Shown here piece by piece: positions 17,518 to 45,100 of a DNA stretch of 64,000 bases. The first letter of the stretch is position 1, and each line of letters opens with the position of its first letter. The notes beneath the pieces were generated by a model that was given only the letters and a program-made list of their open reading frames with translations, made no database searches and was not told where the DNA came from. The translations under genes and the position numbers were made by a program. This stretch comes from Pseudomonas abieticivorans (lineage in GTDB: Bacteria; Pseudomonadota; Gammaproteobacteria; Pseudomonadales; Pseudomonadaceae), in the NCBI RefSeq assembly GCF_023509015.1, contig NZ_CP094975.1:5883501-5947500 (forward strand), read 5' to 3'.

Positions 17518-17583
17518 ATGACCTTATCCATGCCGATGTTCGCCGCCGTTATTATTACCGCCATTCCTTATTTGGCGGGCTAG
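17518..17583 (+). CDS. Leader peptide of an Ile/Val/Thr-responsive attenuator upstream of ilvA
   Basis: A 21-residue ORF (ATG 17518, TAG 17581-17583) beginning MTLSMPMFAA and ending PYLAG. Codons 11-16 read GTT ATT ATT ACC GCC ATT (Val-Ile-Ile-Thr-Ala-Ile), a cluster of branched-chain and threonine codons, the substrates/products of the downstream threonine dehydratase pathway. It is immediately followed by an intrinsic terminator, and its own RNA can form alternative pairings with that terminator (see the attenuator entry). No strong Shine-Dalgarno precedes it. Role is inferred from codon content, position and pairing. Confidence 0.75.
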   Translation: MTLSMPMFAAVIITAIPYLAG

Positions 17584-17623
17584 CGTTCATCTGCACCCAA
17601 CCCGCCCTGGAGGCGGGTTTTTT
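17541..17623 (+). promoter_or_regulatory. Transcription attenuator (1:2, 2:3, 3:4 pairing) controlling ilvA
   Basis: Four complementary segments are visible: 1 = CGCCGCC inside 17541-17548; 2 = GGCGGG at 17574-17579 (end of the leader ORF); 3 = CCCGCC at 17601-17606; 4 = GGCGGG at 17612-17617. Pairing 3:4 is the terminator; pairing 2:3 would be the antiterminator; pairing 1:2 would free 3 for termination. A ribosome stalled on the Ile codons (17551-17568) would cover 1 but leave 2 free, favouring read-through. This is the classical amino-acid attenuator logic. Confidence 0.75.
17599..17623 (+). terminator. Intrinsic terminator of the ilvA leader
   Basis: Stem ACCCGCC (17600-17606) with GGCGGGT (17612-17618), five-base loop, then a run of six T (17618-17623). 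It stands between the leader peptide and ilvA, 40 bases before the ilvA start codon, so it acts as the conditional stop of the attenuator. Confidence 0.85.
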
Positions 17624-33090: not shown

Positions 33091-34860
33091 TCAGTTGGGC
33101 TTGGAGGCCGCGAAGTAACCGCGCCAGCCACCGAACGGGCTGATGTTCACGGCCCCTTGCAGGCCATACGGCTCGCAAATGAACCCGGTTTCCCAACGCC
33201 CATCGGCCAGTTGTACTTTGCCCAAGCCCAGCGGTGCCGGGATACCGGTTAGAAAAGACCCCAGTTCACTGCTCGGCAACTCCCACACCTCGACCTCGAT
33301 GGCCACGCCGCCTTCGGCTACGCGCAGCATGCCGGGGCGCAGGGGCGGGCCGCCAGCCAGCGCGTAGAGCTGGTAATCGGGTGAGCTGTGGGTGGCCTCC
33401 AGTAGCCGCGCGCCGCGCTGTTGCAACTGCCCGTTCAGCGCCAGGCCGTCCAGGTGCGCACCGCACACTACTAACCTTGCGCGGTCATTGCGCGCAAGGC
33501 TGGCCGGCGCCGCTTGCCCGGTGAAGGCGTTGGCCAGGCTCAACAGGTACTGGTCGGTGAACGCGCGGCCGAACAGGGTCACCCCCCAGGGCAAACCATT
33601 GGCCATGAAACCGCTGGGCACCGCCACGGCGGCGTAATCGAGCAAGTTCATGAAGTTGGTGTAGTAGCCCAACTCCGAGTTGCGCAGCACCGGCGCTTGT
33701 TCAAGTTCGGCCAGGGTCACCGGGCGGCCGATGGTGGGGGTGATGACACAATCGAGCGAGCCGAGGGCCTGGTCACAGATCGCCTTGAGCGCCTGCAGCC
33801 GGTATTGCCCGCGGAATGTCTGCACGCCGCTGACGCCGGGGGCCTTGGTGAGTACGGCGCGGATCACTGGCAGCACGGCTTCGGGGTGCTGTTCCATCAG
33901 GGCCCCGGCGACGCTGTAGCGTTCGGCCACCCAAGGGCCTTCGTAAAGCAGGCGTGCGGCCTCCAAAAAGGGCGACAGGTCCAGTTCAACGGCTTGGCCG
34001 CCCATGGCGTTGAGCCTGTCGATCGCTTGGGCGAACAGCCCGGGGCCCTCGGTGCAGCCAAAAAACGCGAGGTCTTGGGGCCGTGGCACGCCAAAGCGAA
34101 ACGGGCGAGGTGCACCGAAGGCCGTCGCATCGTTCCAGGCCGGGTTGGTGCGGCTGTATTCATCCCGCGGGTCCAGGCCTGCGGTCAGGGCGAGCAACTG
34201 GCTGGCCTCGCGGGCGGTGGCGGTAAAGGTGGTGACGCAGTCCAGGGTGCGGCAAGCCGGCACCACGCCGGCCGTGGAGAGCAAACCCTTGGTGGCCTTC
34301 AGGCCCACCAGGTTGTTCAGCGCCGCCGGCACGCGGCCCGAGCCTGCGGTGTCGGTGCCCAGGGCGAAGCTGGCCACGCCCAGCGCCACGGCCAGGGATG
34401 AGCCTGCACTGGAGCCGCCCGAGGGGTACTCGGCGAGCACGCTGTTGCGGCAAGCGCCGTAGGGCGAGCGTGTGCCATTGAGGCCGGTGGCGAATTGGTC
34501 CAGGTTGGTCTTGCCCAGGGGGATCGCGCCCAAGGCGATCAGTTGTTCGACCAAGGTCGCCGAGCGTTCAGGCACGTGGGCGAACGCCGGGCAGGCTGCG
34601 GTGGTGGGAATGCCGGCCAGGTCGATGTTGTCCTTGATCGCGAACGGCACGCCGTACAGCGGCAGGCTATCAAGGTCGCGGCCTTCCAGGGCAAGCAGAT
34701 AGGGCTCCAGTTCGTCCAGGCTGAGCAGGTGGATGAACAGGTGGTAGTCGGGATTCAGGGCACTGGCCTTGGCCTGCACCTGGGTCAGTACTTCCCGTGG
34801 GCTGAGGGTGCCGGCACGGTAGGCGGCGCGCAGCGCATCCAGATTCAAATTCAGGTTCAT
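33091..34860 (-). CDS. atzF: Allophanate hydrolase
   Basis: 589 residues. Hydrolyses allophanate to two ammonia and two CO2 (last step). The amidase-signature triad is visible: Lys in VPFAIKDNIDLAG near residue 92, and the two Ser in GGSSAGSSLAVALG near 148 and 172 (TDTAGSGRVPAALNN). The C-terminal domain (about 460-589, with GGPPLRPGMLRVAEGG) is the allophanate hydrolase C domain. Its start overlaps the stop of the carboxylase by four bases (34857-34860). As part of the guanidine operon it completes the conversion to ammonia. Confidence 0.95.
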   Translation of the reverse strand: MNLNLNLDALRAAYRAGTLSPREVLTQVQAKASALNPDYHLFIHLLSLDELEPYLLALEGRDLDSLPLYGVPFAIKDNIDLAGIPTTAACPAFAHVPERSATLVEQLIALGAIPLGKTNLDQFATGLNGTRSPYGACRNSVLAEYPSGGSSAGSSLAVALGVASFALGTDTAGSGRVPAALNNLVGLKATKGLLSTAGVVPACRTLDCVTTFTATAREASQLLALTAGLDPRDEYSRTNPAWNDATAFGAPRPFRFGVPRPQDLAFFGCTEGPGLFAQAIDRLNAMGGQAVELDLSPFLEAARLLYEGPWVAERYSVAGALMEQHPEAVLPVIRAVLTKAPGVSGVQTFRGQYRLQALKAICDQALGSLDCVITPTIGRPVTLAELEQAPVLRNSELGYYTNFMNLLDYAAVAVPSGFMANGLPWGVTLFGRAFTDQYLLSLANAFTGQAAPASLARNDRARLVVCGAHLDGLALNGQLQQRGARLLEATHSSPDYQLYALAGGPPLRPGMLRVAEGGVAIEVEVWELPSSELGSFLTGIPAPLGLGKVQLADGRWETGFICEPYGLQGAVNISPFGGWRGYFAASKPN

Positions 34861-38468: not shown

Positions 38469-38569
38469 GGCATAACCCCCCAAGGCGCATCAAGTGAGCC
38501 TTGACCTGGGATGCGGGCCGTCCCGCAATGCTGGAAGTGCTTGAAGGTCGTCCTCCAAACACACCTCCG

Positions 38570-38657
38570 CGTAGGAACGGATTGATCCGCGCAGCAGGCG
38601 CCACGGTTTTTCAGCTAGACCGTGGCGATCTTTTCGCGGATCAATCCGCTCCTACAC
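38570..38657. repeat. GTAGGAACGGATTGATCCGCG palindromic element (copy 2, nested hairpins)
   Basis: Outer arms 38570-38591 and 38634-38657 match as reverse complements, variant of the element at 32563; an inner hairpin GCCACGGT (600-607) with ACCGTGGC (619-626) is nested within. Located between the DUF1989 gene and the carboxylase within the operon, so it may modulate the transcript, e.g. by stabilising upstream mRNA. Confidence 0.85.
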
Positions 38658-38739: not shown

Positions 38740-39372
38740 TCAGTCCCATATCAGTAACTGCGCTGCGGTGGGGTTGTAGCCGTTGCACGGGTTGTTCAAC
38801 TGCGGGCAGTTGGAGATCAGCACGATCACGTCGACCTCGGCGCGCAGCTCCACGTACTTGCCCGGCGCCGAAATGCCGTCTTCGAAGGTCAGGCCGCCGT
38901 CGGCCGTCACCGGGACGTTCATGAAGAAGTTGATGTTGGGGCTGATGTCGCCCTTGCCCAGGCGCCCGTCGTGCACGCAGGCGCGCAGGTAGTTGTCGCG
39001 GCAGCTGTGCATGTGGCGTTTGTCCAAGGCGTAGCGCACGGTGTTGCTCTCTTGGGCGCAGGCCCCGCCCAGGGTGTCGTGGCGCCCGCAGGTGTCGGCA
39101 ACGATCGTCAGCAGCGGGTTGCCGAGGTTGGAATACAGCACGCTGCCGGCGCTCAGGTACACGCTGCCCTGGCGGCGCAGGGTGCGTTGCACGTCATAGC
39201 GCTCCTTGGGGTTGGCGGCGCTGTAGAACAACGTGTCCACCGCCTGGTTGCCTTCAAGGTCGAGGATGCGCACGGTCTGCCCGGCCTTGACCTCGGTCAG
39301 GAAGGGTTCGCCAGCGGCAATGGTGGCGCGGTACACCGCAGCCTCCGGGTGTTTTGCAGATGACAGTGACAT
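38740..39372 (-). CDS. DUF1989 protein, carboxyguanidine deiminase subunit (UAAP)
   Basis: 210 residues, 'urea carboxylase-associated protein' family. Conserved blocks: [19 protein letters not shown], then [38 protein letters not shown] (described as residues about 105-142, with a CGRHD and CAQE that can bind zinc). Homologous pairs form the CgiAB deiminase that removes ammonia from carboxyguanidine to give allophanate. A perfect GAGGAG ribosome site precedes the ATG at 39372. 10 bases downstream of its partner. Which gene is A or B is not assigned here. Confidence 0.88.
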
Positions 39373-39382
39373 GGCAGCCTCC

Positions 39383-40108
39383 TCAGGCGAACAGGCGATC
39401 GGTGTTGATGAAGCCGCGCTGGTTTTCCGGGCGTGAGGTGCGGCAGTGCTCGGCGACCTCGGCGCTGGCATGCATCCAGGTAAGGTTCAGCGGTTGCGGT
39501 GCATAGCGGGGGTTGGGGTCCATGGGGTGTTGCAGGGCGGTGAGTACCACCAGGGTGTCCATCGGCGCGTAAAGCTCGATGTAATCGCCGGCCTTGGAAT
39601 GCCCCTCGATGAACTGGAAGCGCCCGTCGGCGTCCACGTCCACGCGGCTGAACAGGTTAAGCAGCATGGTCAGCTCGGCCAGGCCCAGGCCCCATTTGCC
39701 CAGTTCCACCAGCAGGTTGTCGACGCCGTTGCGGTAAAAGCCGTTGCGCAGCTCCTGGTAGCGGCCCTGGCCGTATTTGCCGGCCACTTCCTGTGCGCAC
39801 AGCACGCCACCGAAGCTGTCGCTCCAGCCCGTGGTGTCGGCGGTGATGGCCGCCAGTACCCGGCCCATGTCCGAGTACAAACAATGGCCAGCGGTGAGCT
39901 TGGCGGTGTGTTGGCACTTGAGGCTGTCGGGCAGGCTCAACCGTTCGGTTTTTTCCTGGGCATTGAGCAGCGTCAGGCTGACGTTGGCGCCGCCGTGCAG
40001 GTCGGTCAGGCGCAGCAGGTGGCCGCGCTTGAGCACAAAAGAGCGGTGGCCGCCGCCAGGCAAGGTTTCTTCGGCGAAGGCCGGGTAGGGCAAGGTCGTA
40101 TCGTTCAT
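39383..40108 (-). CDS. DUF1989 protein, second carboxyguanidine deiminase subunit (UAAP)
   Basis: 241 residues of the same family as the gene next downstream. Shared features: [40 protein letters not shown] near residue 105-123, then [15 protein letters not shown]. One conserved CAQE is retained while the paired CGRH is replaced by TGWS, suggesting that one subunit carries most of the metal site. Start 40108 follows AAGGA. Lies between the ATPase and the other DUF1989 gene, consistent with a heteromeric complex. Confidence 0.88.
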
Positions 40109-40119
40109 GTGCGTGTCCT

Positions 40120-40908
40120 TCAAGCCAGTTGCAGGGTGCCCGCCAGCGCGGCCGGCAGGGCATCGATCGCGGCGCGGGCGGCGCGGCGGTCTGCGTTCAA
40201 GGGGATGTCGTAGGTGATGCGCGCGCCATAGGCGCCGGGGGCATGCGGGTCTTGGCGAACCTTGTCGAACACCAACAGGCGGGTGCCTAGGCTGAAGCCT
40301 TCGGCCAGGTCATGGGTGACCATGAACACGGTCAGTCGGGTTTCGCGCCACAGTTCCAGCAGCAACACGTGCATGTCTTTGCGGATGCCGGGGTCCAGCG
40401 CGCCGAACGGCTCGTCCAGCAGCAGCACCCGTGGCTTCATGATCAGCGCCTGGGCAATGGCCAGCCGTTGCTGCATGCCGCCGGACAACTGCGCCGGGTA
40501 TTTGCCCAACGCATGGCCCAGGCCGACCTTGTGCAGCAGCACGCTGGCCTGCTCGCGGGCCTCGCGCTTGGCCTGGCCCAACAAGCGGCCCAGCCAAGGG
40601 GCGCGCGGCAGTTCCAGGCCCAGGGCGACGTTGTCCAGTACGCTCAAGTGGGGGAACACCGAATAACGCTGGAACACCACGCCCCGCGTCGCGTCCGGTT
40701 CGCCCGCAAGCGGCTTGCCGTCGAGCAGGATCTGGCCACGGCTGGTGCGCTCCTGGCCCAGTAGCAAGCGCAGGAAGGTCGATTTGCCGCAGCCCGAGGC
40801 GCCAACCAGGGTGCAGAACTCACCCTCGGCCACGCTCAGGTTCAGGCGTTCAAGCACCACTTGGTCGCCATACTGCTGCCACACGTTGTTCACGCTGATA
40901 AAGCTCAT
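40120..40908 (-). CDS. ABC transporter ATPase of the guanidine operon
   Basis: 262 residues. Walker A GASGCGKS near residue 38-46, Q-loop VVFQRYSVFPHLS near 80, signature LSGGMQQRLAIAQAL near 138, Walker B LLLDEPFGALD near 165 and MVTHDLAEG. Start 40908 (MSFISVNNVWQQYG) with AGGAG seven bases upstream. Overlaps the permease stop by four bases, so translationally coupled. TauB/SsuB-like by sequence; guanidine or a related amidino compound is the inferred cargo. Confidence 0.93.
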   Translation of the reverse strand: MSFISVNNVWQQYGDQVVLERLNLSVAEGEFCTLVGASGCGKSTFLRLLLGQERTSRGQILLDGKPLAGEPDATRGVVFQRYSVFPHLSVLDNVALGLELPRAPWLGRLLGQAKREAREQASVLLHKVGLGHALGKYPAQLSGGMQQRLAIAQALIMKPRVLLLDEPFGALDPGIRKDMHVLLLELWRETRLTVFMVTHDLAEGFSLGTRLLVFDKVRQDPHAPGAYGARITYDIPLNADRRAARAAIDALPAALAGTLQLA

Positions 40909-41720
40909 GGCCGCGCTCCTTCGTACCAGGGGAAGGCGCGCCGGGTCAGGGCTTTCAGGCCCCAGTCCATCAACCAGGCGAGCAGGGTGATCCACACTAC
41001 GTAAGGCAAGATCACGTCCATGGCCAGGTAGCGACGTACCAAAAAGATCCGGTAGCCCAGGCCGTCGGTGGAGGCGATGGCTTCTGCCGCGATCAAGAAC
41101 AACCAGGCCGAACCCAGCATCAAGCGCAGCGAGATCAACAAGCGTGGCAGCAATTGCGGTAACACCACCCGCAGGATCACCGTCCAGGTCGAGGCGCCCA
41201 GGGTTTGCGCCTTGATCAGTAACTCCACCGGGATTTCCCGAGCGCGCTGTTCAAGGTCACGGGCCAGCGCCGGGGTGATGCCGATGACGATCAGCATGAC
41301 CTTGGACAACTCGCCCAGCCCGAACACGATGAACAGGATCGGCAGTATCGCCAGCGGCGGCACCATCGACAGCACCGTGAGCAAGGGCGACAGGCCGGCG
41401 CCAAACAGCGGCACTGTGCCGGCCAACACGCCCAGGCACAGGGCTGCCAGGGCGCTGATGCCCAAACCAATGGCCAGGCGTTGCAAGCTGGCGGCGCTGT
41501 CCACCAGCAGCAGGAAATCGCCGGTGCGGCTGTCGGCCACCAACGCCATGCGTTTTACCGCATCGCCCATCTGCACCGCGCTGGGCAGCAGTTTGTCGTT
41601 GGCGTTTTCGGCCAGGCGGCTGGCCGAGCCCAGGAAGTAGGCGGCCAGTATCAGCACGAACGGCAGCAACAACAGCATCAGGCGGCCGGCACGGTCGGGG
41701 TGACGATTGATCAGGCGCAT
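40905..41720 (-). CDS. ABC transporter permease of the guanidine operon
   Basis: 271 residues with about six membrane helices, and the EAA-like loop IKAQTLGASTWTVILRVVLPQLLPRLLISL (residues about 170-200). TauC/SsuC-type by sequence. Start at 41720 follows GGAG. The ATG of the ATPase overlaps its stop. Acts with the binding protein just upstream to import the substrate. Confidence 0.92.
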   Translation of the reverse strand: MRLINRHPDRAGRLMLLLLPFVLILAAYFLGSASRLAENANDKLLPSAVQMGDAVKRMALVADSRTGDFLLLVDSAASLQRLAIGLGISALAALCLGVLAGTVPLFGAGLSPLLTVLSMVPPLAILPILFIVFGLGELSKVMLIVIGITPALARDLEQRAREIPVELLIKAQTLGASTWTVILRVVLPQLLPRLLISLRLMLGSAWLFLIAAEAIASTDGLGYRIFLVRRYLAMDVILPYVVWITLLAWLMDWGLKALTRRAFPWYEGARP

Positions 41721-41736
41721 GGCCGTCTCCTGAGGG

Positions 41737-42804
41737 TTAGAGCTTGCCGTCGGCGGCCATTTGCACGTAGGTCGGGTCAAAGTGCAGTTTGAGGTTGCCC
41801 TTGTCGCCGCTGGTGATGCCTTTGGCGAAGGTCATGCCTACAGCGTTAGCGTCCTTGGCGCCTTCGCCCAGCAAGCCGTGGGCAAAGGAGAACTGCGCGA
41901 CCTTGTCCATGGTGGCGGGCAGTTTCGGGCTGGTGGCAAACGCCAGGGCTTGGGCCGGGGTGGCGAACAGTTTGGTGGTGTCCAGTTGCGCTTGGAAACC
42001 GGCCAGGTCAGTACCCGAGGCCTTGGCCATGTGTTCCAGGGCGGCGGTGCTGGCGGCGGTCTTGGCGTTCATCAAGGCCACCACTTCAAACCAGGCGCCG
42101 GTCAGCGCCTTGCCCAACGCTGGGTTGTCCTTGAGGGTCTGGCTGTTGACCACCATCATGTCCATGATCTCGCCGGGGATCTGGCTGGAATTGAACACTT
42201 CAGTCACGCCAGGCTTGGCCTTGATCTCTGAAAGCATCGGGTTCCAGGTGGTCACGGCCTGCACCTGGTCGGTGTTGAAGGCGGCAACGATGTCGGCGTC
42301 GGAAGTGTTCACCACCTTCAGGTCTTTTTCGCTCAGGTGGGCGTTTTCCAGGCCCCGGGCCAGCAGGTAGTGGGAGACGGAGAGTTCCACCAGGTTGACG
42401 TTCATGCCCTTGAGGTCGGCCAGGGTCTTGCCGGTGCCCTTGAGCACCACGCCGTCGTTGCCGTTGGAAAAGTCGCTGACGATCAGCGCGGTGCTGTCCA
42501 CGCCGCCGGCGGCGGGGATGGTCAGGGCGTCCATGTTGGTCATGGTGCAACCATCGAACTGGCCGGCGGTGTACTGGTTGATGGATTCGACGTAGTCGTT
42601 GAGCTGGGTGACGTCGATGCTGATGCCGTACTTCTTGGCCCACTTATCGACAATGCCCTGGGTGCCGGCGTATTCCCATGGCATCCAACCGGCGTAAATC
42701 GTCCAGCACACGTTGAAGTGATCTTTTTGCGCGGCCTGTGAACTGAGGCTCAGAAAGGCCGCGAAGGTGGCGGCCAGCAAGGCGGGGAGACGAACGTTGA
42801 GCAT
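41737..42804 (-). CDS. Periplasmic substrate-binding protein of the guanidine operon
   Basis: 355 residues. Signal peptide MLNVRLPALLAATFAAFLSLSSQA, mature from about residue 24 (AQKDHFNVCWTIYAGWMPWEYAG). NMT1/SsuA-like type 2 binding fold with a WTIYAGWMPWEY substrate-loop, ITxxNMDALTIPAAGGVDSTALIVSDFSNGNDG being conserved in ABC-type nitrogen-compound binders. First gene after the riboswitch, with GGAG upstream of ATG 42804. Presumed receptor for guanidine or a related compound. Confidence 0.92.
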   Translation of the reverse strand: MLNVRLPALLAATFAAFLSLSSQAAQKDHFNVCWTIYAGWMPWEYAGTQGIVDKWAKKYGISIDVTQLNDYVESINQYTAGQFDGCTMTNMDALTIPAAGGVDSTALIVSDFSNGNDGVVLKGTGKTLADLKGMNVNLVELSVSHYLLARGLENAHLSEKDLKVVNTSDADIVAAFNTDQVQAVTTWNPMLSEIKAKPGVTEVFNSSQIPGEIMDMMVVNSQTLKDNPALGKALTGAWFEVVALMNAKTAASTAALEHMAKASGTDLAGFQAQLDTTKLFATPAQALAFATSPKLPATMDKVAQFSFAHGLLGEGAKDANAVGMTFAKGITSGDKGNLKLHFDPTYVQMAADGKL

Positions 42805-42867
42805 GGGTGTTTCTCCAGTTGAACGTGAGATGGCCAGGAGCATCGCGGCACCGCGTGAACGGTGGCT

Positions 42868-42958
42868 GTCTCCCGGGCTTTTATCCCGCCGTGTAACCTC
42901 AACTGGAGGTCGCCAACTCTCGGACCAGCCACTCGCCTAAGCGAGCCGGAACCCTAGT
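42868..42958 (-). promoter_or_regulatory. Guanidine-I riboswitch (ykkC class)
   Basis: On the minus strand the 5' leader of the operon contains the hallmark ykkC elements in order: CTAGGGTTCCG (42948-42958), GGTCCGAGAG with flanking stem (about 42915-42930), and CGGGATAAAAGCCCGG (about 42872-42890), ending GGAGACA. These are the conserved P1/P2/P3 strands that bind guanidinium. It sits 60-150 bases upstream of the binding protein ATG; whether control is by termination or by ribosome access is not clear: no T-run is visible, suggesting translation or an unseen structure. Confidence 0.92.
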
Positions 42959-43018
42959 CAGCCATTTGCAAATTGTGGTGCGGCGAACCTGTGATGACTC
43001 CTGCACGTCGTGGAGGAA

Positions 43019-43034
43019 TGCTAGATGTGTGCCA
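43019..43034 (-). promoter_or_regulatory. Candidate sigma-54 promoter for the guanidine operon
   Basis: Minus strand TGGCACACATCTAGCA: GG and GC are separated by exactly 10 bases, as in the sigma-54 -24/-12 consensus (TGGCAC-N5-TTGC), with one mismatch in the -12 element. It lies about 60 bases upstream of the riboswitch, a normal distance for a leader. Nitrogen-limitation control by NtrC would fit a guanidine operon. Confidence 0.5.
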
Positions 43035-43197
43035 GGTTGCCTAGCCGCGGTTTTATTGAACTTGAGGCTGCCACAAGGCACTTGAACTGCACCTTGATGG
43101 GGCCGGGTGGGATATTTCGGTGCGCGTGGCCGGGTGAAATTGTCATCAAAATGGAATCAATAAGTCTCAAATCCTGCTAATTGTTCTCAATAGGATC

Positions 43198-43213
43198 AGG
43201 CACTACATTAGCT
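43198..43213 (+). promoter_or_regulatory. Candidate sigma-54 promoter for the amidohydrolase gene
   Basis: AGGCACTACATTAGCT on the plus strand has the GG-N10-GC spacing of sigma-54 promoters with two consensus mismatches. It is 49 bases upstream of the amidohydrolase ATG at 43262. Weaker than the partner on the other strand; possible coincidence in a divergent region. Confidence 0.35.
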
Positions 43214-43261
43214 CCACACCCAGCTAAGCTCACTCGATGCCCCGTTCAGGAGAACAAAAAC

Positions 43262-45100
43262 ATGCACGCCGACCTCATCCTCTATAACGGCCGCCTGCAC
43301 ACGGTCGACCGCACCAAGCCCCGCGCCAGCGCCGTGGCCATCAAGGACGGCAGGTTCATCGAGGTGGGCAACGACGCCCAGGCCATGGCCCATCGCGGCG
43401 CGGCCAGCCAAGTGATCGACCTGCACGGGCGCACGGTGATCCCCGGCCTCAACGACTCGCACCTGCACCTGATCCGCGGTGGCCTGAACTACAATCTGGA
43501 GCTGCGCTGGGAAGGCGTGCCCTCGCTGGTCGATGCCCTGCGCATGCTCAAGGACCAGGCCGACCGTACCCCTGCGCCACAGTGGGTACGCGTGGTGGGC
43601 GGCTGGAACGAATTCCAGTTTGCCGAGAAACGCATGCCCAGCATCGAGGAGTTGAATGCCGCGGCGCCCGACACCCCGGTATTCGTGCTGCACCTGTATG
43701 ACCGCGCCTTGCTCAACCGCGCCGCCCTCAAGGTGGTGGGCTATACCCGCAACACGCCGAACCCGCCCGGCGGCGAAATCGTGCGTGACGCCAACGGCGA
43801 GCCCACCGGCATGCTGGTGGCCCGGCCCAATGCGATGATCCTTTATTCCACCTTGAGCAAAGGGCCGAAGTTGCCGCTCGAATACCAGGTCAACTCGACG
43901 CGCCAGTTCATGCGTGAGCTCAATCGCCTGGGCGTGACCAGTGCCATCGACGCCGGCGGCGGTTTCCAGAACTACCCCGATGACTACGAGGTGATCAACG
44001 AATTGGCGGCGAAAAAGCAGCTCACGGTGCGCATCGCCTACAACCTGTTCACCCAAAAACCCAAGGAAGAGCTGGCCGATTTCAAGCACTGGACCAGCAG
44101 CGTGACCCTGCACCAGGGCGATGACTACCTGCGCCACAACGGCGCCGGCGAGATGCTGGTGTTCTCGGCAGCCGACTTCGAGGACTTCCTGGAACCGCGC
44201 CCGGATCTGCCGCACACCATGGAGCAGGAACTGGAACCGGTGGTGCGCCACCTGGTGGAGCAACGTTGGCCGTTCCGCCTGCACGCCACCTATGACGAGT
44301 CCATCAGCCGCATGCTCGACGTGTTCGAGAAGGTCAACCGCGACATTCCGTTCAATGGCCTGCCGTGGTTCTTCGACCACTGCGAAACCATCACGCCGAA
44401 AAACATCGAGCGGGTGAGGGCGCTCAACGGCGGCATCGCGATTCAGGACCGCATGGCCTTCCAGGGCGAATACTTCGTCGACCGCTACGGCGCCAAGGCG
44501 GCCGAGGCCACGCCACCGATCCAGCGCATGCTGGCCGAGGGCGTGCCGGTGGGCGCCGGCACCGACGCCACCCGGGTGTCGAGCTACAACCCCTGGACTT
44601 CGCTGTACTGGATGGTCAGCGGCAAGACCGTGGGCGGCCTGGAGCTGTACCCTGAGGGCCTGAGCAGGGATGTGGCGCTTGAACTGTACACCCATGGCAG
44701 CGCCTGGTTCTCGTCCGAACAGGGCAAGAAGGGCCAGATCAAGGTCGGTCAACTGGCGGACCTGGTGGCCCTGAGCGCCGATTATTTCAGCGTTGAAGAC
44801 GAAGCGATCAAGTGGATCGAGTCACTGCTTACCGTGGTGGACGGCAAGGTGGTGCACGCCGCCGGCGAGTTCGGCCAACTGGCGCCACCTACCTTGCCGG
44901 TGACGCCAGACTGGTCACCGGTGGCCAAGGTGCCGGGCCACTGGCGGCCGCAATCGCCGGTGATGAACCAGGTGCACCAGTGCAGCGGGCCGTGCGGGGT
45001 GCATGCCCACAGCCATGACAAGGTGCGCCAGGCCAATGTGCCGACCAGCGACTTCCAGGGGTTCTGGGGTGCGTTTGGCTGTTCCTGCTTTGCCTTTTGA
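43262..45100 (+). CDS. YtcJ-like metal-dependent amidohydrolase
   Basis: 612 residues, COG1574 (amidohydrolase family 3). Opening LYNGRLHTVDRTKPRASAVAIKDGRF and the metal-binding GRTVIPGLNDSHLHLIRGG (His-x-His near residue 74-76); later His in FDHCETITPKN near 380 and the Asp in GAGTDATRVSSYNP near 435 complete the binuclear metal site pattern. Hydrolyses C-N bonds of unknown substrates. ATG 43262 follows AGGAG. Divergent from the guanidine operon, and followed after 24 bases by an ABM gene, so it may process a related amide or amidino compound, but this is inference. Confidence 0.9.
   Translation: MHADLILYNGRLHTVDRTKPRASAVAIKDGRFIEVGNDAQAMAHRGAASQVIDLHGRTVIPGLNDSHLHLIRGGLNYNLELRWEGVPSLVDALRMLKDQADRTPAPQWVRVVGGWNEFQFAEKRMPSIEELNAAAPDTPVFVLHLYDRALLNRAALKVVGYTRNTPNPPGGEIVRDANGEPTGMLVARPNAMILYSTLSKGPKLPLEYQVNSTRQFMRELNRLGVTSAIDAGGGFQNYPDDYEVINELAAKKQLTVRIAYNLFTQKPKEELADFKHWTSSVTLHQGDDYLRHNGAGEMLVFSAADFEDFLEPRPDLPHTMEQELEPVVRHLVEQRWPFRLHATYDESISRMLDVFEKVNRDIPFNGLPWFFDHCETITPKNIERVRALNGGIAIQDRMAFQGEYFVDRYGAKAAEATPPIQRMLAEGVPVGAGTDATRVSSYNPWTSLYWMVSGKTVGGLELYPEGLSRDVALELYTHGSAWFSSEQGKKGQIKVGQLADLVALSADYFSVEDEAIKWIESLLTVVDGKVVHAAGEFGQLAPPTLPVTPDWSPVAKVPGHWRPQSPVMNQVHQCSGPCGVHAHSHDKVRQANVPTSDFQGFWGAFGCSCFAF

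Follow-up and report, generated by a model that had tools for sequence, protein, structure and literature searches.

A predicted guanidine assimilation operon of Pseudomonas abieticivorans with two guanidine riboswitches and a conserved σ54-type promoter motif

Introduction

Guanidine riboswitches are mostly discussed in terms of detoxification, or as sensors that respond to guanidine alone. The operon studied here, of a kind normally labelled urea carboxylase, raises two questions: which substrate does it serve, and under which conditions would a cell express it? It lies in a window of 64,000 nucleotides, the whole stretch of DNA that was analysed, from the genome of Pseudomonas abieticivorans. 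In this window the original prediction, made from the sequence alone, had placed a guanidine-I riboswitch ahead of genes for a transporter, two DUF1989 proteins, a biotin carboxylase, and allophanate hydrolase.

The locus carries two guanidine riboswitch families, the gene families of an assimilation pathway, a carboxylase with diagnostic Asp residues, a promoter motif conserved among relatives, and a complementarity between the aptamer and the first ribosome-binding site. We consider it probable that the operon takes up guanidine as a source of nitrogen and degrades it to ammonia and CO2, under three layers of control.

Aptamer and gene content

Three conserved blocks of the ykkC class, in order on the minus strand, had been taken as a guanidine-I riboswitch to be checked by a covariance-model search. 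All three are present within 42868-42968, and cmscan of the 64-kb window matched RF00442 there over its full length (1-107/107) at 95.0 bits against a gathering score of 63 (E = 5.7e-16), the single guanidine-I match reported in the whole 6.7-Mb genome. The interval originally assigned to the riboswitch, 42804-43034, contains the aptamer and is too wide for it: it spans the region from the start codon of the binding-protein gene to a σ54-type promoter motif, which had gone unnamed. Besides this motif, a guanidine-II riboswitch within the operon had also been missed.

The gene order given at the time, from binding protein, permease, and ATPase through two DUF1989 proteins to carboxylase and allophanate hydrolase, is borne out by NCBIfam and Pfam models (Table 1). 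Both DUF1989 proteins belong to PF09347, are encoded next to each other, and exceed the cut-offs of the UAAP1 and UAAP2 models, as CgdA and CgdB, the subunits of carboxyguanidine deiminase, would. That the genes form one transcription unit is plausible; the 271-nt gap ahead of the carboxylase is occupied by a REP pair, the guanidine-II element, and a weak terminator-like match at 38581-38566 (-). The REP core pattern counts 515 times in the genome in forward orientation at up to two mismatches, compared with 0 for the reversed control pattern, and by eye the corresponding gap of several relatives appears to hold different short repeats. Elsewhere in the window, a divergent neighbour (43181-45100, +) encodes an Amidohydro_3 family protein (PF07969, 447 bits) for which no tie to the operon was seen, and the Pseudomonas sRNA P9 (RF00624) is found at 17548-17621 (+) with 86.8 bits.

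Table 1. Features of the operon and its leader, in the direction of transcription (window coordinates)
Feature	Position	Strand	Basis
Predicted σ54 (RpoN) -24/-12 promoter CTGGCACACATCTAGCA, GG-N10-GC	43019..43035	-	11/14 consensus positions
Guanidine-I riboswitch aptamer (RF00442)	42868..42968	-	cmscan, Rfam 15
Putative anti-Shine-Dalgarno stretch CUCCAGUUGA, arm and loop of aptamer hairpin P2	42899..42908	-	complement of SD region
CUCCUGG, 3' arm of terminator-like stem with aptamer 3' end CCGGGAG	42834..42840	-	folds
Shine-Dalgarno (SD) region UCAACUGGAG of binding-protein gene	42813..42822	-	sequence; complement of P2
Substrate-binding protein, first gene	41737..42804	-	TIGR03427, 577 bits
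ABC permease, TauC/SsuC type	40905..41780	-	ORF as listed; true start probably further in
ABC ATPase	40120..40995	-	ORF as listed; true start probably further in
UAAP1 / DUF1989, predicted carboxyguanidine deiminase subunit	39383..40123	-	TIGR03425, 316.6 bits (cut-off 206)
UAAP2 / DUF1989, predicted carboxyguanidine deiminase subunit	38740..39471	-	TIGR03424, 335.6 bits (cut-off 285); ORF as listed, true start probably further in
REP pair in gap before guanidine-II	38571..38654	-	core pattern
Guanidine-II (mini-ykkC) riboswitch (RF01068)	38513..38559	-	cmscan, 40.8 bits (gathering score 32)
Putative SD-sequestering hairpin after guanidine-II	38476..38511	-	UCCC against GGGG of carboxylase SD; fold and alignment
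Predicted guanidine carboxylase, 1203 aa	34857..38468	-	TIGR02712, 1868 bits (cut-off 1304)
Allophanate hydrolase	33091..34860	-	TIGR02713, 769.6 bits; PF21986

Leader of the operon

In the window, 10 nt of the aptamer hairpin P2 are perfectly complementary to the SD region ahead of the binding protein, and 10 nt is also the median length of perfect complementarity over 49 copies of the genus, a set from which L080 was left out by a motif filter. Folded without constraints, the leader pairs the aptamer 3' end with CUCCUGG and the arm and loop of P2 with the SD, and the segment running from P2 through the SD forms, on its own, one long hairpin of -41.8 kcal/mol. CUCCUG had also been considered as the anti-SD of CUGGAG, a candidate that was rejected because in the folds CUCCUGG is paired to the aptamer 3' end, and P2 is the partner of the SD.

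Among the relatives, the P2 loop CAGUAG goes with CUACUGGAG and the loop CAGUUG with CAACUGGAG. Over the 36 copies that fit the CTCCAG/CTGGAG motif (14 of the 50 do not), P2 loop and SD flank form 10 unique pairs, and only 8 of 5000 reassignments were as good (p = 0.0016); the variants follow clades. Mean pairing energies were -17.5 kcal/mol for a leader's own P2 and SD, -15.6 for swapped pairs, and -7.5 for shuffled P2, and 22/49 copies had their own pair in the best quartile. The aptamer stem requires the CCUC part of P2, which looks like any anti-SD, so several nucleotides of this complementarity are expected anyway. When the aptamer was locked, the SD became more accessible in 48/49 leaders, a modest gain (medians 0.20 to 0.31, and the same in the window) that stems partly from the positions forced to be unpaired by the full lock; enforcing P1 alone gave no rise in SD accessibility (medians 0.011 and 0.009), and the alternative structure was absent from an RNAalifold consensus of the entire leader.

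An intrinsic terminator is the usual expression platform of guanidine-I riboswitches and does not define the aptamer. The operon might thus be an ordinary dual-riboswitch operon in which guanidine-I acts by transcription termination and the P2:SD complementarity is incidental. Such an explanation accounts for the terminator-like stem between the aptamer 3' end and CUCCUGG, for the near-equal stability of swapped and own P2:SD pairs, and for the 7 of 50 leaders with at least 5 T in the 8 nt after the stem, in which intrinsic termination may act; besides, the guanidine-I element of Vreelandella presumably destabilises an intrinsic terminator, according to the part of that report available to us (PMC12508155). 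Against it stand the covariation of P2 loop and SD flank and the window leader itself, where at most 3 T occur in the 8 nt after the stem, without a U-tract, and where a scan of 42700-43250 (loops of 3-8 only) found no terminator-like site. We therefore regard termination as the main mode of this leader as rather unlikely, and a translational switch with a vestigial or clade-specific terminator as the likely description of the Pseudomonas leader, judging from folds and covariation.

A survey reaching beyond the genus retained 45 loci after filtering, including 9 from Pseudomonas. The mean P2:SD energies of own, swapped, and shuffled-P2 pairs were -15.3/-13.8/-13.5 kcal/mol in 4 alphaproteobacterial loci, -13.9/-11.1/-8.1 in 5 betaproteobacterial, -12.3/-10.6/-9.0 in 20 gammaproteobacterial, and -7.5/-5.1/-5.2 in 7 others. 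The pairing is clear in some of these loci only (e.g. L112, L137, and L146), so we limit the proposal of an aptamer-borne anti-SD to Pseudomonas.

Promoter region

Upstream of the aptamer we found a GG-N10-GC element with a predicted transcription start at about 43008, and no σ70-type promoter was found in 42700-43250, around the aptamer. Sites of the form GG-N10-GC were scored against YTGGCACGRNNNTTGCW, which we take to be the σ54 consensus, at 14 positions. In line with YTGGCACGRNNNTTGCW, a study of Burkholderia gives GGcacg-N4-ttGC as the σ54 site, in the section of it that we could draw on (PMC5491218). A loose form of the site, TGGCACNNNNNTNGCA, matches only once in the window, with 0.41 matches expected by chance, and the window's own score is the lowest among 49 sites of the genus; given this low score and the possibility of a chance match, the argument for the site depends on its conservation in relatives.

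Within 130 nt upstream, a site of at least 11/14 precedes 49 of the 50 guanidine-I copies of the genus (from 40 fetched stretches and the window, 41 stretches in all), compared with 63/4000 random windows of 130 nt. More than one guanidine-I copy occurs in seven stretches, and a separate site precedes every one of their 16 copies; L083 and L086 contain three copies and L074, L079, L082, L087, and L095 two, together with guanidine-II in one gene run. The sole copy of the 50 without a site is that of L088 (genome G122), in which the SD and the CUCC stretch are altered too. In other families of the class, sites scoring at least 10 within 110 nt precede 27/29 copies from 21 genomes, compared with 278/5800 dinucleotide shuffles and 0/114 flanking windows; both copies without a site, L050 and L065, stand ahead of UAAP1.

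The same threshold of 10 was applied to named genomes (80 of 120 stretches, 82 scored rows, L185 being left out with 8 nt upstream only). Sites were found in 14/17 alpha-, 16/19 beta-, and 17/19 gammaproteobacterial rows (10 of these 19 being Pseudomonas), in total 47/55, and in 1/17 rows of Bacillota (0/13 of those linked to exporters), 0/7 of cyanobacteria, 0/2 of actinobacteria, and 0/1 of Aliarcobacter; these counts include L145 (alpha, score 10) and L190 (Bacillota, 10 and 9), whose sites, 18-19 nt before the CTAGGG block, are too near it for a transcription start ahead of the aptamer. In every other alpha-, beta-, or gammaproteobacterial row at or above the threshold, those from the other families of the class included, the site lies at least 32 nt before CTAGGG, which places the predicted start no further downstream than the first base of P1. 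Three rows counted in the betaproteobacteria, L147, L149, and L179 (Nitrosomonas/Nitrosospira), have guanidine-I without a σ54 site, an absence that would fit guanidine serving there as an energy source and not as emergency nitrogen.

Upstream of guanidine-II in the genus, none of 21 exporter-linked loci (20 selected and the window genome's own) reached 10; the operon-internal copies, L104 excluded, reached 10 in 7/40 and 11 in 1/40 cases (against 302 and 63 of 4000 random windows). The exporter contrast is confounded with phylum in Bacillota and with riboswitch class in the genus, where it concerns guanidine-II, and the comparison set contains no exporter-linked guanidine-I of Pseudomonadota.

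The genome encodes both rpoN and ntrC. Dyads resembling NtrC sites (TGCACC-N4/5-GGTGCA, at least 10/12 positions) occur upstream in 19/49 cases and in 18/300 random windows, a weak enrichment only, so that NtrC is the presumed activator. The GG-N10-GC spacing, the -24/-12 consensus, and the conserved position together characterise the element as a candidate σ54 promoter.

The motif might instead be another conserved element, such as a protein site, with a different regulator driving the operon. An inverted repeat of the type GCACG...CGTGC or GCACA...TGTGC, with covarying arms in genus relatives, seems by eye to span the promoter (43033-43003 (-) in the window), which would suit such an element, and a LysR regulator has been proposed for the Ectopseudomonas operon, as far as the consulted portion of that paper goes (PMC13296017). 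What makes this alternative improbable is that GG-N10-GC sites with the σ54 consensus recur in alpha-, beta-, and gammaproteobacteria, that their spacing to the aptamer puts the predicted start at or before P1 in all rows except L145, and that a similar Burkholderia operon is described as NtrC-dependent in the text seen (PMC5491218). By eye, the stretch from the start to the aptamer also appears unusually conserved in genus relatives.

Guanidine-II ahead of the carboxylase

The guanidine-II element lies 44 nt upstream of the carboxylase ATG and has two hairpins with the loops ACGA and ACGG, both of the ACGR type. In the window, the carboxylase SD is predicted to pair with UCCC immediately 3' of the second hairpin; the stretch between UCCC and this SD varies in length and sequence in the alignment of relatives. 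The RNAalifold consensus over guanidine-II, computed without L104, contained the two aptamer hairpins and not the SD hairpin. A second guanidine-II of the genome stands ahead of a small multidrug resistance (exporter) gene.

Substrate of the carboxylase

A guanidine carboxylase is expected to have Asp at the position of residue 1584 of the Kluyveromyces lactis enzyme, and Asp at 1330 separates it from urea carboxylase, as described in the accessible part of a study on comammox bacteria (PMC11410670). In an alignment with the K. lactis enzyme, positions being counted by hand, Asp701 and Asp947 of the window carboxylase are the equivalents of residues 1330 and 1584. The position of 1330 is Asp in 38/38 motif matches of the fetched relatives and Asn in none. 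From these markers the enzyme is predicted to prefer guanidine and to be of the guanidine rather than the urea type. The genome encodes one full-length protein of the carboxylase family and, separately, a full-length urease alpha subunit, so urea use would be independent of the operon.

That the operon nonetheless serves urea, through urea carboxylase and allophanate hydrolase and with its name correct, is suggested by the names urea carboxylase and urea transporter of the family models and by a Burkholderia study whose text, in the part at hand, put a similar operon down to urea use (PMC5491218), yet this is scarcely credible beside two guanidine riboswitch classes in one operon, Asp instead of Asn at the 1330 position, two carboxyguanidine deiminase homologues, and a separate urease, and urea carboxylase as the true function was dropped on the Asp marker, the two switches, and the urease. 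The predicted pathway from guanidine through carboxyguanidine and allophanate to ammonia, as originally proposed, is thus supported by the covariance model, the family models, and the Asp/Asn distinction.

Layout across the genus

Guanidine-I was found in 83 and guanidine-II in 139 of 149 genomes drawn from the genus, and in at least 67 of the 83 the nearest guanidine-II lies on the same strand 2.7-4.6 kb downstream of guanidine-I. We fetched 40 operons, from 27 of the 66 further genomes with such a listed pair and from 13 of the 16 without one (unpaired). By sequence pattern, a guanidine-II motif is directly ahead of the carboxylase in 39/40 stretches, including 12/13 of the unpaired, and the same number contain importer, DUF1989, guanidine-II motif, and carboxylase all together. 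The gene order of the window up to the carboxylase recurs in 35/40; in L083, L086, L087, and L095, permease and ATPase come first, behind their own guanidine-I.

The exception is L104 (genome G058), in which the promoter motif and guanidine-I leader stand directly ahead of allophanate hydrolase, with importer and carboxylase not found in the fetched stretch; L183 (Pseudomonas sp. AL03) resembles it. An allophanate hydrolase like that of the window was not found in 18 of the 40 stretches (tblastn, 1e-20), where the gene for the last step may lie elsewhere, or a different enzyme may perform it. The dual arrangement of guanidine-I and guanidine-II is already known and is common in the genus.

Discussion

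We propose that the operon is controlled in three layers. Transcription would start from the σ54 promoter about 40 nt before the aptamer, with NtrC as the most likely activator under nitrogen limitation. In the absence of guanidine, the leader from P2 onward would refold into one long hairpin, built from the aptamer 3' end paired to CUCCUGG and, at its base, from the arm and loop of P2 paired to the SD of the binding-protein gene; bound guanidine would hold P2 in the aptamer and free the SD. Because the stem has no U-tract in the window genome, the effect there would be mainly on translation (or through Rho) and not on intrinsic termination. The internal guanidine-II would then separately open translation of the carboxylase. 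The likely logic is nitrogen starvation AND guanidine, followed by guanidine once more at the carboxylase. Use of the promoter, activation by NtrC, a response of each switch to its ligand in the direction described, and flux through the pathway are all what we infer for this circuit.

On balance we favour a broader rule, with some reserve: in Pseudomonadota, guanidine-I riboswitches of assimilation operons would as a rule lie directly behind a σ54 promoter, which would confine guanidine sensing to cells starved of nitrogen, while the exporter-linked guanidine switches examined and the guanidine-I of three Nitrosomonas/Nitrosospira genomes have none; in Pseudomonas, P2 would double as the anti-SD of the first gene. 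Beyond the published layout, the analysis adds the conserved candidate nitrogen-starvation promoter before assimilation-type guanidine-I across Pseudomonadota and the probable aptamer-borne anti-SD, two layers for which we found no joint description. If the promoter is what it appears to be, guanidine would be treated as a reserve nitrogen source and not as a poison alone, and the appearance of a 'urea carboxylase' operon in the NtrC regulon would be explained. The circuit would have three inputs and possibly a translational mode of guanidine-I with the anti-SD inside the aptamer.

Control of such operons by σ54 and NtrC is already in print, in pieces. The gene name 'aminomethyltransferase' also stands for UAAP proteins, and COG3665 is presumably the DUF1989 family. 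In Burkholderia cenocepacia H111, I35_7283-7286 encode a urea carboxylase-related binding protein, an aminomethyltransferase, and urea carboxylase, and are NtrC-dependent: in the ntrC mutant under nitrogen limitation the carboxylase changed by log2 -6.0 and the binding-protein gene had zero reads, by the excerpted account (PMC5491218). That operon was read as serving urea, the word guanidine being absent from the text of the paper as accessible, and we deduce its orthology from gene names, unaligned. The H111 shift medium was low in ammonium, with guanidine unmentioned in the available passages (PMC5491218), which suggests that the operon is transcribed to some extent even when no guanidine is added, as would fit a leader acting on translation. 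A computational σ54 regulon of 2025 lists 102 COG3665 genes in alpha-, beta-, and gammaproteobacteria, of which 59% are named urea carboxylase, and its main text, in the portion covered, does not use the word guanidine (PMC12316311). Our literature search, with most subscription journals outside its reach, found, among the papers listed, no statement joining σ54/NtrC control to a guanidine riboswitch.

Among close relatives of Pseudomonas, operon IV of Ectopseudomonas guguanensis G3 combines guanidine-I riboswitches with a urea carboxylase-related ABC transporter and carboxylase; a guanidine function was suggested, and mention of guanidine-II or σ54 was not found in the sections available (PMC13296017). 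In Billgrantia, which we take to be a relative within the Halomonas group, like Vreelandella, the guanidine-I leader of L115 has a σ54 score of 9/14.

The completeness of the set, transporter included, had been presented as remarkable, a view that does not hold, since the same layout is in print and common in the genus. In the enterobacteria Raoultella terrigena, Erwinia rhapontici, and Klebsiella michiganensis, importer and deiminase genes go with guanidine-I, carboxylase and allophanate hydrolase follow downstream with guanidine-II as in the window, and growth on guanidine has been shown, according to the pages of the review that we could use (PMC12186494). The gca/mgdH operon of Vreelandella boliviensis has the same guanidine-I first, an ABC importer, cgdA/B, guanidine-II before gca, and atzF; it differs from the window operon in carrying mgdH and mgdL between gca and atzF, and its guanidine-I is presumed to act on a terminator, with no σ54 promoter mentioned in the partial text (PMC12508155). 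The original observation is thus real and correctly interpreted, and by itself describes a further example of this published operon type.
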